Shown piece after piece: positions 8,460 through 35,640 of a stretch of 39,394 bases of DNA (position 1 is its first letter; the number at the start of each line of letters is the position of its first letter). The stretch is from Chitinophaga pinensis (lineage in GTDB: Bacteria; Bacteroidota; Bacteroidia; UKL13-3). The stretch covers positions 1 through 39,394 of the forward strand of contig CAMCEM010000010.1 of the NCBI GenBank assembly GCA_945873755.1, written 5' to 3'. The notes under the pieces are model-generated. The model saw only the letters and a list, made by a program, of their open reading frames with translations, searched no databases and was not told the origin of the DNA. Position numbers and translations under genes: made by a program.

Positions 8460-9296
8460 ATGAACAAAATAACACTTTCCATTTTAACAATATTGGTAGT
8501 ATTTGCCTCGTGTAGCAAAGAAGAAGGAGTAACTGAAGACAAATGTGCCGGCAAATATGCTTCGAGCACTTTTACCAACTTAGTAATAAGTTTAGACCAA
8601 GATAAGCAAATGGGTTTGGCTGCTGTAGCGGAAATTGAAGGCAATGCTACCGAATACCCAATTTTAGATTCTGCTACAAATAAAGTGGCTTATGGGCATA
8701 TAAACAGAATAACAAAAAATATTTTAGATAGCGGTGGAGCATATTACAGAAATGATTTTGCTTGGAGAGTAAGAATCATTAACAAAGATGTGCTAAATGC
8801 ATTTTGCACTCCAGGAGGTTATATTTATGTTTATACTGGTTTAATTAAGTTTTTAGATAACGAAACACAATTGGCTGGTGTTATGGGACACGAAATTGCT
8901 CATGCCGACAAGCGTCACAGTGCAAATCAAATGCTAAAAAATTATGGTGTTGGTGCTTTAACTACTATTTTGTCAGGTGGAGATCCTGGAGCTTTATCTA
9001 ACCTTGCTACACAGCTAATCGGCTTATCTTTTAGCCGTTCTGATGAAACTGAGGCAGATAAATTTTCAGTAAAATATTTAAATGGAACAAGTTACGATGG
9101 TCGTGGCGCAAAATATTTCTTTGAAAAACTAATAGCAGCAGGACAAACAGGTGGCACACCCGCTTTTTTAAGTACACACCCAAATCCTGAAACCAGAGTA
9201 GAAGATATTACTAAAGTTTGGGAATGTTATGGAAGTAAAGTGGGTCAAACTTTTGATGCACAATACATGGCGTTTAAGGCCAGCTTACCTAAATAA
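8460..9296 (+). CDS. M48-family zinc metalloprotease, lipoprotein
   Basis: The 278-residue product starts with a lipobox signal peptide (MNKITLSILTILVVFASCSK), so it is likely anchored in a membrane facing the periplasm. The zinc site is HEIAH at residues 144-148 (VMGHEIAHADKRHS), with the third ligand in ETEADKFSVKYL (Glu198). The pattern VRIINKDVLNAFCTPGGYIYVYTGLI upstream and STHPNPETRVEDI at the end match BepA/LoiP-type M48 proteins, which act in quality control of outer-membrane proteins. A strong terminator follows. Confidence 0.92.
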   Translation: MNKITLSILTILVVFASCSKEEGVTEDKCAGKYASSTFTNLVISLDQDKQMGLAAVAEIEGNATEYPILDSATNKVAYGHINRITKNILDSGGAYYRNDFAWRVRIINKDVLNAFCTPGGYIYVYTGLIKFLDNETQLAGVMGHEIAHADKRHSANQMLKNYGVGALTTILSGGDPGALSNLATQLIGLSFSRSDETEADKFSVKYLNGTSYDGRGAKYFFEKLIAAGQTGGTPAFLSTHPNPETRVEDITKVWECYGSKVGQTFDAQYMAFKASLPK

Positions 9297-9313
9297 TAAA
9301 AACTAAATTTTTT

Positions 9314-9345
9314 AAAAAGCGGAATTTAAAAGTTCCGCTTTTTTT
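9314..9345 (+). terminator. Rho-independent terminator after M48 protease gene
   Basis: Stem AAAAAGCGGAA (9314-9324) pairs with TTCCGCTTTTT (9333-9343) around an 8-nt loop and continues into a T run. It lies 18 bp after the protease stop codon. Confidence 0.85.
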
Positions 9346-9356
9346 GTGCAAAATTA

Positions 9357-9480
9357 TTTGGGCGTTCCCTGCTTTCCATTGCCAAGCCCAACAGCAGGTC
9401 AGGCTATTCGCTGCAATCTTTTATTCAGCCCAAATGCCAAATCCAATAAAAGGATTTTCGCTTCTATCCTTAACGCATTT
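9357..9480. repeat. G+C-richer structured intergenic element
   Basis: The block starts TTTGGGCGTTCCCTGC and ends near CTATCCTTAACGCATTTG. It contains a CCTGCT/AGCAGG stem (9368-9373 with 9393-9398). Its base composition is richer in G and C than anything nearby. Two overlapping open frames cross it, but neither resembles a protein. From memory I associate the opening GGGCGTTCCC and closing AAAGGATTTTCGCT phrases with intergenic repeats in other Bacteroidota genomes; this was not checked. It may be a mobile palindromic element or a structured RNA. Confidence 0.5.
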
Positions 9481-9519
9481 GTTTTTAAAATTATCATTAA
9501 AAAACTTACATTTGCCTTT

Positions 9520-9705
9520 GAAAGGTCGGTAATATTTGAAAAAAATTAATACTAATTTTAAAACAGCTGAACCGCTTTGCCAAAACCAGGCTTTTTTACC
9601 CTAGTGGGATTTTTAATAACTTGTTATTAAAGACGTTAGAAGGTTGCGGCTCCTGTGGAGGCTAAATCCTATTCATTTCGGATTTTTATCAAAAACCGAC
9701 CTTTC
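9520..9705. repeat. 186-bp element bounded by 11-bp perfect inverted repeats
   Basis: GAAAGGTCGGT at 9520-9530 is the exact reverse complement of ACCGACCTTTC at 9695-9705. Inside are an 18-bp palindrome (TTAATAAC-TT-GTTATTAA, 9613-9630) and a hairpin-like GGCTCCTGTGGAGGC. No open frame is seen. The layout suggests a small non-autonomous element or a folded RNA. Nothing recognisable lies between 9706 and 9796. Confidence 0.5.
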
Positions 9706-9796
9706 TTTTTAAATAAATTCGAGGAATAATATTACAAAAAATTAATTTTAAATGTATAGTATAGCTATGTGTACTTGTTTAATAAAAAATAACTTG

Positions 9797-9861
9797 AACC
9801 ACATAGATTCTGTGTTAAACAAAAAGTTTAAACACTATGCTTTCTATGTTTCTATGTGGTT
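9797..9861. repeat. Solo copy of the AACCACATAG inverted-repeat element
   Basis: AACCACATAG (9797-9806) pairs with CTATGTGGTT (9852-9861), and inner segments GTGTTAAAC and GTTTAAACAC also pair. The right arm (9835-9861) is nearly the same 27-bp sequence as the one downstream of the GxxExxY gene at 35614-35640. Here no gene lies between the arms, so this looks like an empty or internally deleted form of that element. Confidence 0.7.
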
Positions 9862-9937
9862 TTATTATTTAACTTGTAATTAGTAGTTTAAATAAAACTT
9901 CAATGTTAGCGGAATTGAGAACCGATGTTTCTTAAAC

Positions 9938-9970
9938 AAAAAAAGCAGCTCAAATTGAACTGCTTTTTTA
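9938..9970 (-). terminator. Rho-independent terminator of fabI
   Basis: AAAAAGCAG and CTGCTTTTT form a stem flanked by A and T runs on both sides, so it could work in either direction. It lies about 20 bp after the fabI stop on the minus strand. Confidence 0.75.
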
Positions 9971-9988
9971 AAAATATTTATTTAAAAC

Positions 9989-10807
9989 CTATTCAGTTTC
10001 TTTGCCCACGTTAAATACATCGGGGCTAAAGCCTGTAAAGCTAAATCCACCATCGTGGAAAAGGTTTTGCATGGTTACCATACGGGTAAAATCGCTAAAC
10101 ATGGCTACGCAATATTCTGCACATTGCTCTGCATTGGCATTGCCTAACGGACTCAATGCTTCAGCATAATCAAAGAAATCGCCAAAACCTTTAACACCAC
10201 TGCCAGCAGTAGTTTTAGTTGGGCTTTGCGAAATGGTATTGATACGTACTTTTTTATGCTTGCCATATTGGTAACCAAAACTGCGGCTAATACTTTCTAA
10301 TAACGATTTTGCATCAGCCATTTCGCTGTAATCAGGGAAAATACGTTGCGCAGCAATATAAGTTAAAGCCACTACCGAACCCCAATCGTTGATAGCATCT
10401 TTTTTATAACAAGTAGCTAATAAACGGTGGAAACTCATAGCCGATATATCAAGCGTATCGTGCATAAACTTATAATCTAAATTGGTATAAACATTGCCTT
10501 TTCTTATGTTCATACTCATACCCACTGAATGTAAAATAAAATCTAACTTACCACCTAAAATTTCCATCGACTTATCGATTAAATTTTCCATGTCTTCATT
10601 TTTACTTACATCGCAAGGAATTATTTGTGCATTGTTACAAGCTACTGCCAAGTTATTAATTTCGCCCATACGCATTGCAATTGGTGCATTGGTTAATACA
10701 AATTCAGCACCTTGCTCGTGGCATTTTAAAGCTACTTGCCAAGCAATTGATTTATCGTTTAAAGCACCAAATATGATCCCTTTTTTTCCTTTTAGTAAAT
10801 TATTCAT
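9989..10807 (-). CDS. fabI: Enoyl-[acyl-carrier-protein] reductase (FabI type)
   Basis: The 272-residue product is a short-chain dehydrogenase-like protein with the FabI signature. The cofactor-binding N-terminus reads GKKGIIFGALNDKSIAWQVA, followed by DFILHSVGMS. The active-site region has a Tyr-x6-Lys arrangement (YSEMADAK) after VALTYIAAQR, and RINTISQSPTKTTAGSGVKGF provides the substrate loop. It reduces the enoyl-ACP double bond, the last step of each cycle of fatty-acid elongation, in the cytoplasm. Length is slightly above the usual 260. It is transcribed alone, divergent from the M1 peptidase gene. Confidence 0.95.
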   Translation of the reverse strand: MNNLLKGKKGIIFGALNDKSIAWQVALKCHEQGAEFVLTNAPIAMRMGEINNLAVACNNAQIIPCDVSKNEDMENLIDKSMEILGGKLDFILHSVGMSMNIRKGNVYTNLDYKFMHDTLDISAMSFHRLLATCYKKDAINDWGSVVALTYIAAQRIFPDYSEMADAKSLLESISRSFGYQYGKHKKVRINTISQSPTKTTAGSGVKGFGDFFDYAEALSPLGNANAEQCAEYCVAMFSDFTRMVTMQNLFHDGGFSFTGFSPDVFNVGKETE

Positions 10808-34929: not shown

Positions 34930-34991
34930 ATTCGAAATTCGAAAAAAATTATTCAGAAAAAATGAACCACATAGAAATATAGAGAACATAG
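34930..34991. repeat. TTCGAAA units and outer copy of the 27-bp element
   Basis: Two TTCGAAA units (34930-34945) are the same heptamer found in valS. They are followed at 34965-34991 by a copy of the 27-bp element starting AACCACATAGAAATATAG, in direct orientation to the copy at 35064-35090. Between these copies is plain AT-rich sequence. Confidence 0.65.
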
Positions 34992-35063
34992 TTTATTGGT
35001 TTTAATTTTCTAAAATAATTGAAACTAATTAGAATATTAAACTTGAATTTCAAAAAAAAATTA

Positions 35064-35090
35064 AACCACATAGAAACATAGAGAACATAG
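35064..35090 (+). repeat. Left 27-bp inverted repeat of the GxxExxY unit
   Basis: The sequence begins AACCACATAGAAACATAG and ends GAGAACATAG. Its reverse complement matches 35614-35640 at 26 of 27 positions. It starts 69 bp before the GxxExxY ATG. Confidence 0.8.
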
Positions 35091-35132
35091 TTTTTTGCAG
35101 TTTTTCTATCTTAAATAAAATATTAATTAAAA

Positions 35133-35558
35133 ATGATTTACGAAAAATACTCGAAAAAGTACCTTGACGATTTAACCTATGAAATTATAGGTGCAGCTAT
35201 TGAAGTACACAAAGTTTTAGGGCCTGGATTATTAGAGAGCGCTTATCATCAGTGTTTAACTCATGAATTAACGTTAAGAAGAATTCCCTTTAAAACAGAA
35301 GCAATTATTCCAATTGAGTATAAAGATTTTGAATTTGAAACTAGTTTACGTTGCGATTTGTACATTGATGATATTTTTGTTGTTGAATTAAAAGCAATAG
35401 AATCCGTTTTACCAATACATGAAGCACAATTACTAACTTACATGAAATTGCTTAAAGCACCTAAAGGAATGATTTTAAACTTTAATGTGTTGAATATTTT
35501 TAAAGATGGTCAGAAAACTTTTGTAAATGATATTTACAGAAACCTACCTGAATTGTAA
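35133..35558 (+). CDS. GxxExxY protein (PD-(D/E)XK nuclease-like)
   Basis: The 141-residue product has the family motif G32-LL-E35-SA-Y38 after GAAIEVHKVLGPG. A PD-(D/E)XK-like catalytic set follows: D75 in LRCDLYID, E85-L-K87 in VVELKA and Q99 in HEAQLLTYMKLL. The family is widespread in Bacteroidota and others, often in several copies per genome, with no proven function. The gene is bracketed by nearly identical 27-bp inverted repeats (35064-35090 and 35614-35640), so it may be the cargo or the mobilising gene of a small element. No T9SS or signal sequence is seen. Confidence 0.9.
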   Translation: MIYEKYSKKYLDDLTYEIIGAAIEVHKVLGPGLLESAYHQCLTHELTLRRIPFKTEAIIPIEYKDFEFETSLRCDLYIDDIFVVELKAIESVLPIHEAQLLTYMKLLKAPKGMILNFNVLNIFKDGQKTFVNDIYRNLPEL

Positions 35559-35613
35559 ATATTTTAGACCAAAATCTTATGTAAAATACACTTATAAATA
35601 TGCAGTTTATAGG

Positions 35614-35640
35614 CTATGTTTTCTATGTTTCTATGTGGTT
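35614..35640 (-). repeat. Right 27-bp inverted repeat of the GxxExxY unit
   Basis: Ends with TCTATGTTTCTATGTGGTT and is the reverse complement of 35064-35090 with one mismatch. A third version is the right arm of the solo element at 9835-9861. Confidence 0.8.

Follow-up and report, generated by a model that had tools for sequence, protein, structure and literature searches.

Gene-less intergenic hairpins in Chitinophaga pinensis share their arms with a unit bearing a predicted GxxExxY nuclease gene

Introduction

Among the described systems that come closest to the locus reported here are REPINs, in which REP doublets form hairpins and which go together with RAYTs, HUH tyrosine transposases, as set out in two papers (PMC3116915, PMC3733652). 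Others are MITEs and the intervening sequences of 23S rRNA (IVS), the latter with an open reading frame for an S23 or four-helix-bundle protein according to PMC4990558. Papers on Geobacter describe intergenic multicopy palindromes and heptamer repeats, with no tie to a nuclease gene in the passages concerned. The literature covered includes PMC4679880, PMC2996986 and PMC2700814.

The present analysis concerns a hairpin at positions 9797-9861 of a stretch of 39,394 nucleotides (the window), which makes up contig C10 of the draft genome G000 (3.13 Mb). A sequence-only reading had suggested that this gene-less hairpin may be a non-autonomous derivative of a unit that carries a GxxExxY gene elsewhere in the same window, moved in trans by the GxxExxY protein or another factor. 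The family name GxxExxY turns up widely in annotated bacterial genomes, and the open-access literature searched gave no function for it.

Like REPINs, these hairpins are short, dispersed and non-autonomous intergenic inverted doublets, a chromosomal partner gene is flanked by the same repeats, and repeat families are tied to specific proteins. Unlike in REPIN/RAYT systems, the partner is a predicted PD-(D/E)XK nuclease and not an HUH tyrosine transposase, the arms consist of three iterated words, and no GTAG/CGTC tag was seen by eye at the arm ends of the aligned copies. As in MITEs, the gene-less copies have the terminal inverted repeats of a gene-bearing unit (26 of 27 bases), here a putative autonomous partner, and insertion is into intergenic DNA and into other repeats; in contrast to MITEs, the partner belongs to PF13366 and is no DDE transposase, there is no firm target duplication, and the arms are directly joined as one hairpin. 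The arrangement of a small ORF within long inverted repeats recalls the IVS, of which ORF-less forms exist, but it is intergenic, lies outside 23S rRNA and encodes an unrelated protein. Since the hairpin lacks both the tag and transposase of REPIN/RAYT systems and the DDE partner of MITEs, it would work like these elements without being classed as a member of either, and the most fitting description is that of a non-autonomous derivative of a GxxExxY unit, similar to REPINs or MITEs. Related nuclease genes in many other bacteria are enclosed by similar mirrored repeats, which points to a family of small mobile DNA that has been little described.

Results

Structure and surroundings of the hairpin

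The hairpin lies between the genes for an M48 peptidase and fabI. Its parts, and those of the repeat that encloses it, are as follows.

9722..9723, no strand: AG, a possible 2-bp target duplication with 9908-9909 (window compared with G006)
9724..9909, minus (forward orientation on minus): whole repeat, long form of about 186 bp; absent at the syntenic site of G006, aligns with L016 at full length and with seven other copies
9797..9861, no strand: central hairpin, the part common to copies across the genus
9797..9806, plus: left arm end AACCACATAG, exact
9835..9861, plus: right arm, built of three CTATGT-type words; identical to the right end of the GxxExxY unit at 26 of 27 bases

The 10-bp arms and 65-bp length given by the sequence-only reading were borne out, with AACCACATAG at 9797-9806 and CTATGTGGTT at 9852-9861 both exact and a fold that beats all 200 shuffles of the segment (z -3.7). 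With at most one mismatch, the arm motif occurs 10 times in the window against a shuffle mean of 2.2 and a largest shuffle value of 7, and the 27-mer end of the gene-bearing unit, at up to three mismatches, is found at four places in the window and in none of 100 shuffles. The same reading had noticed that the right arm is nearly this unit end, and positions 9835-9861 indeed differ from 35614-35640 by a single mismatch. Three “ACATAG” words in one arm stand opposite three “CTATGT” words in the other. As an extent, however, 65 bp describes the hairpin and not the repeated unit, which measures about 186 bp (9724-9909) and has the hairpin in its middle; over this entire length the window copy can be aligned with L016, and about 180 bp are alignable across eight copies of the genome itself. 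The inner complementary segments that had been described are present in the window copy, but because its inner part has diverged from the family consensus they are partly peculiar to that copy.

The surroundings form a repeat mosaic, as had been proposed, in the order of a terminator-like stem after the M48 peptidase gene, a Flavo-1 RNA, a folded segment at about 9520-9706 and then the element. The stem had been called a terminator; it reads as terminator-like, but a scan of 9290-10000 flagged no Rho-independent terminator, the scan being insensitive and also missing a plausible stem near 9310-9345. No rRNA match was found in 9300-10000, and Rfam gave no match at the hairpin itself, with overlapping ones (RmaA, 9881-9978) far below their gathering scores. 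The adjoining Flavo-1 RNA (RF01705) lies at 9393-9479 on the minus strand (54.6 bits, E 4.7e-11). The segment at 9520-9706, which is conserved in G006, has complementary ends, AAAGGTCGGT and ACCGACCTTTC, and folds as RNA with a z of -2.8 (1 of 200 shuffles equally good); Rfam, searched at E up to 1, gave no match to it, and it is a candidate structured non-coding RNA.

Copies in the genome and presence or absence at matching sites

Exact matches to CTATGTGGTT number 26 in the draft genome against 11 for the reversed control. Sorted by eye, 14 of them fall in 11 gene-less hairpins, six are one-armed, three belong to the gene unit and three are apparently coding, so that about 11 gene-less hairpins stand against one gene-bearing unit with these ends. 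All 11 hairpins are intergenic, with no centre inside an ORF of at least 100 aa. A covariance model (R1) built from eight copies finds the hairpin in 9 of 10 genomes of the genus, G006 being the one without. Its matches in the genome itself are largely so by construction (8 of 10 distinct places built the model), and its copy counts include both strands, with contig ends perhaps counted double, as for L111 and L118, which are apparently one place split between contigs. Between most genomes of the genus only the core of about 65 bp is common, which reads AAACCACATAG-AT-ACATAG-ATT-ACATAG, followed by a short loop and then by the same words in mirror image; the genomes in which the long form was read are G000, G002 and G005. 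Over eight copies, none of the 22 stem pairs is altered on both sides, and at the ccoP-ccoG site covariation was judged by eye only.

At the window site, conservation of the hairpin in distant relatives had been named beforehand as the sign of a local regulatory or terminator role, and no such conservation was found. The only same-genus genome that keeps the M48 peptidase gene beside fabI in the fetched stretch, G006, has no hairpin there; its flanks join as TTCGAG|CGGAGTC, where the window has 186 extra bases (9724-9909). The junction of this insertion lies in a REP-like palindrome, and L016 is bounded alike. A possible 2-bp AG/CT target duplication is seen at the window copy, L016 and L006, and not at other copies. 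Between ccoP and ccoG (names read from the translated flanks), a hairpin is found in G001, G002, G003, G004, G005 and G009 and, shortened, in G007. This amounts to seven of the nine genomes in which the site was seen, so that some copies are old; G006 has no hairpin at this site, G000 has another repeat there, and G008 gave no match to the site. At three further sites, hairpins of G002 or G005 are absent from close relatives such as G001. Site 1 shows an insertion inside a REP-like palindrome, as at the window site, the G005 copy at site 2 was deduced from a gap together with an R1 match, and at site 3 only the left arm is present in G000 and G008. In total, comparison of orthologous intergenic regions shows presence and absence of the hairpin at five sites within the genus, with insertion inside another palindromic repeat at two.

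The gene-bearing unit and its protein

The unit with the same ends as the hairpin lies between rplS and valS, named from a reading of the window ORFs, and has the following parts.

34965..35640, plus: gene-bearing unit, same ends as the hairpin, between rplS and valS
34965..34991, plus: additional left end, differing from the 27-bp end by 2 mismatches
35064..35090, plus: left end, which repeats the right end in inverted orientation with 1 mismatch
35133..35558, plus: GxxExxY gene (TIGR04256 / PF13366), predicted PD-(D/E)XK nuclease
35614..35640, plus: right end of the gene-bearing unit, 27 bp

Of the 10 genomes of the genus, G000, G004, G005 and G007 have the unit, and G001, G002, G003, G006, G008 and G009 lack it. 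All four genomes that have it carry it at this single site, and no movement of the gene unit was seen among them. The window unit has two left ends in tandem (34965-34991 and 35064-35090), and G004, G005 and G007 have one. The coding sequence is under strong purifying selection, with a dN/dS of 0.03-0.10 among the four genomes.

The protein matches TIGR04256 (GxxExxY) with 128.9 bits against a cut-off of 35 (E 1.2e-37) and PF13366 with 127.3 bits against a cut-off of 22. In an alignment of 33 members, G-x-G-x-x-E-x-x-Y (E35, Y38) and K87 are invariant, and D75 and E85 nearly so. A search for relatives of solved structure by sequence found none at E up to 1. An AlphaFold2 model of the protein (pLDDT 94.4) gave nothing in Foldseek at E up to 0.001, the best match being SSO0001 (1.9e-3), which was also the best in VIA-align, with a Z of 8.9 over 99 residues at 23% identity, other nucleases scoring under 8. 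SSO0001, which we take to be a Cas4 (4ic1), is thus the nearest solved fold and has a PD-(D/E)XK active site, and the prediction for the GxxExxY protein is a nuclease of the PD-(D/E)XK kind, closest to Cas4. The likeness is distant at this Z, the Pfam profile Cas_Cas4 scores 15.4 bits, below its cut-off of 22.7, and unlike for Cas4 no cas genes were noticed beside the gene in the window. The fold by itself shows no function for the protein. In addition, the gene was found in 8 of 72,556 plasmid records and 0 of 50,697 phage records, so that it is mostly chromosomal and general carriage by plasmids or phages is rejected.

GxxExxY is present in 85 of 117 relatives. In these 85 genomes the word ACCRCANAGNNRCANAG has 357 matches (control 17), against 12 (control 4) in the 32 relatives without the gene, five of the 12 in G025, and at least two matches occur in 31 of 85 genomes with the gene and 1 of 32 without. 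These counts include the words beside the genes themselves and the statistic ignores phylogeny, so that part of the correlation is built in, each gene bringing its own flanking words. Within the genus, G006 has neither hairpins nor a GxxExxY gene, but as it is the single hairpin-less genome this could be coincidence or shared ancestry. Hairpins also occur in five genomes, G001, G002, G003, G008 and G009, in which no GxxExxY gene carries these ends, from which it follows that the gene is not needed for the hairpins to persist and may not be what moves them.

Inverted word-repeats around GxxExxY genes

In the genome studied, all four GxxExxY genes lie between inverted repeats of iterated words, one word per gene. 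Scoring one flank against the other, a value of at least 30 was reached by 4 of 4 genes of this genome and 17 of 30 in relatives, compared with 8 of 145 crossed flanks and 0 of 30 fabI controls (the crossed fabI value is meaningless, as some of those flanks are homologous). Among named loci, 48 of 80 reached this threshold against 45 of 800 crossed, and 30 of 80 against 11 of 800 reached at least 40. These fractions are no random samples, since the named loci are the 80 best out of 576 confirmed ones and each genome among the 30 relatives is represented by its best locus. Going by their record titles, the loci scoring at least 34 belong to Bacteroidota, Ignavibacteria, Planctomycetota, Chloroflexota, Acidobacteriota, Proteobacteria, Verrucomicrobiota and Chlamydiota. 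Their words follow a grammar of ACC and then N4-AG every 8-10 bp, as in ACCACAGAG, ACCACGAAG, ACCGCAAAG, ACCATTAAG and ACCACATAG. Of 118 pooled loci, 62 score at least 34, and the left arm has ACC in 47 of these. Over the 62 loci, protein identity correlates with arm similarity (Spearman 0.36, with a maximum of 0.19 in 1000 permutations and 0.01 for a random flank), a correlation that could stem from the common descent of entire units just as well as from recognition.

Within the genus, each protein clade keeps its own word, at fixed sites. Upstream of a sufS-like gene, one GxxExxY clade is found in G000, G003, G004 and G008 and another in G001, G002 and G005, both between the same neighbours and with similar outer words. 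Set against each other, L028, L132, L137 and L139 on the one hand and L136, L140 and L141 on the other show two clades at one intergenic site in different genomes, with flanks up to 94% identical. The presence of two clades at one site looks like the exchange of one GxxExxY unit for another.

Several further repeats were observed around genes of these and other families. In L028 and L132, gene-less hairpins of another word (AACCGCAAAG..CTTTGCGGTT) are nested downstream of the GxxExxY gene, and in distant genomes (L162, L166, L169, L198, L209 and L234) each flank of the GxxExxY gene resembles a complete hairpin of its own. Genes for four-helix-bundle proteins (TIGR02436; L091-L100 of G000) also lie in iterated inverted repeats of their own, for example L096 and L098, and 6 of 10 have a flank score of at least 30 compared with 0 of 45 crossed. 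The Y1_Tnp genes L302, L304, L305 and L306 are flanked by REP families of their own (e.g. CAACTCCGAAGGAGTTGAAT).

That GxxExxY genes generally go together with inverted word-repeats specific to their clade is a larger finding than the hairpin. No earlier description of this was found in the open-access literature searched, although the supplements of the Geobacter papers may hold one.

Discussion

The best explanation of the hairpin, to which we give about an even chance, is that it is a gene-less non-autonomous element that resembles REPINs or MITEs and has the GxxExxY protein as its partner. The recognition unit would consist of two inverted arms of three short words each, about one helical turn apart, in the layout ACC-ACATAG-nn-ACATAG-nnn-ACATAG, loop and mirror image, and in the gene-bearing form the same two arms bracket the gene for the predicted Cas4-like PD-(D/E)XK nuclease. 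The nuclease may recognise its own words in the hairpin, as a cruciform or as single-stranded hairpin DNA, and cut there, and copying or repair at the cut would then spread or remove gene-less hairpins, in a way comparable to the proposed spread of REPINs by RAYT transposases. The sequence-only reading of a non-autonomous GxxExxY derivative therefore stands as far as it describes a dispersed, gene-less relative of the unit ends that is present or absent at matching sites; that the protein binds, cuts and spreads it, and so is the mover, we infer. Against this explanation stand the five genomes that have hairpins but not the matching gene, the single site of the gene unit in the four genomes that carry it, the lack of a consistent target duplication, and the conserved outer parts of the long form, which are not clearly common to the gene unit.

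The hairpin could instead be a REP/BIME-type repeat moved by an HUH (RAYT, Y1_Tnp) transposase, the GxxExxY gene having inserted into such hairpins or picked them up. Y1_Tnp genes occur in 10 of 10 genomes of the genus, and the long form abuts or splits REP-like palindromes, so that REP dynamics may carry the element along, but G006 has four Y1_Tnp matches and no hairpins. Paired CATAG arms were found in none of 16 fetched Y1_Tnp regions of G000, G001, G005 and G009, with one lone 9-mer in L292, which sets the element apart from REPIN/RAYT systems, where the RAYT gene is flanked by the same repeat; for these 16 regions the arms are rejected as a Y1_Tnp repeat. As several of the regions have other flanking repeats of their own, and as arms of this kind accompany GxxExxY genes across phyla, we regard this origin as unlikely.

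The gene-less hairpins might also be dead remnants, left where units had inserted and the gene was deleted between the arms, with no mobilisation in trans. The hairpin does amount to the two ends of the unit joined via a TTTATAGG-like loop, and the unit has such a loop beside its right end too. One-armed remnants exist, with half a hairpin at site 3, and six genomes have no gene unit between rplS and valS; yet none of these six empty sites holds a hairpin. No gene-bearing copy was seen at the compared hairpin sites, and hairpins outnumber the units with these ends. The 180-bp gene-less long form, common to many sites, fits amplification of a gene-less form, and many copies alike over outer parts that the gene unit lacks, in a genome with a single unit, are largely what is seen. 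Simple decay of gene-bearing units thus explains the shared ends but not the long gene-less form at many sites, and is quite unlikely. It is very unlikely that selection keeps the hairpin as a local terminator of transcription or as an mRNA 3'-end structure, with an old and incidental dispersal: although all 11 copies are intergenic (convergent neighbours at 4 of the 7 hairpins with both neighbours called, divergent at none), the ccoP-ccoG copy is kept in seven genomes and one relative has an ordinary hairpin instead at site 2, selection on RNA structure is unsupported by the eight copies (0 of 22 pairs with two-sided changes), the admittedly insensitive scan gives no terminator at the window hairpin, and at the window site the neighbouring genes keep stems of their own while G006 manages without the hairpin.

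Taking the hairpin, then, as a non-autonomous partner of the GxxExxY unit, GxxExxY proteins may tentatively be seen as the mark of a class of small elements, mobile or selfish and carried on the chromosome, that extends over eight or more bacterial phyla, a view that we hold at somewhat less than even chances. In such elements, a stand-alone Cas4-like nuclease between inverted arrays of a clade-specific word (ACC-N4-AG) would spread gene-less hairpins in trans, in the manner of REPIN/RAYT systems but with an unrelated enzyme, and TIGR02436 would perhaps be a second, parallel case. The fixed link between each protein and its own mirrored word-repeats gives a directly testable substrate, and it would explain many unannotated intergenic repeats. 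If this is true, a PD-(D/E)XK nuclease can do for such hairpins what HUH transposases do for REPs.
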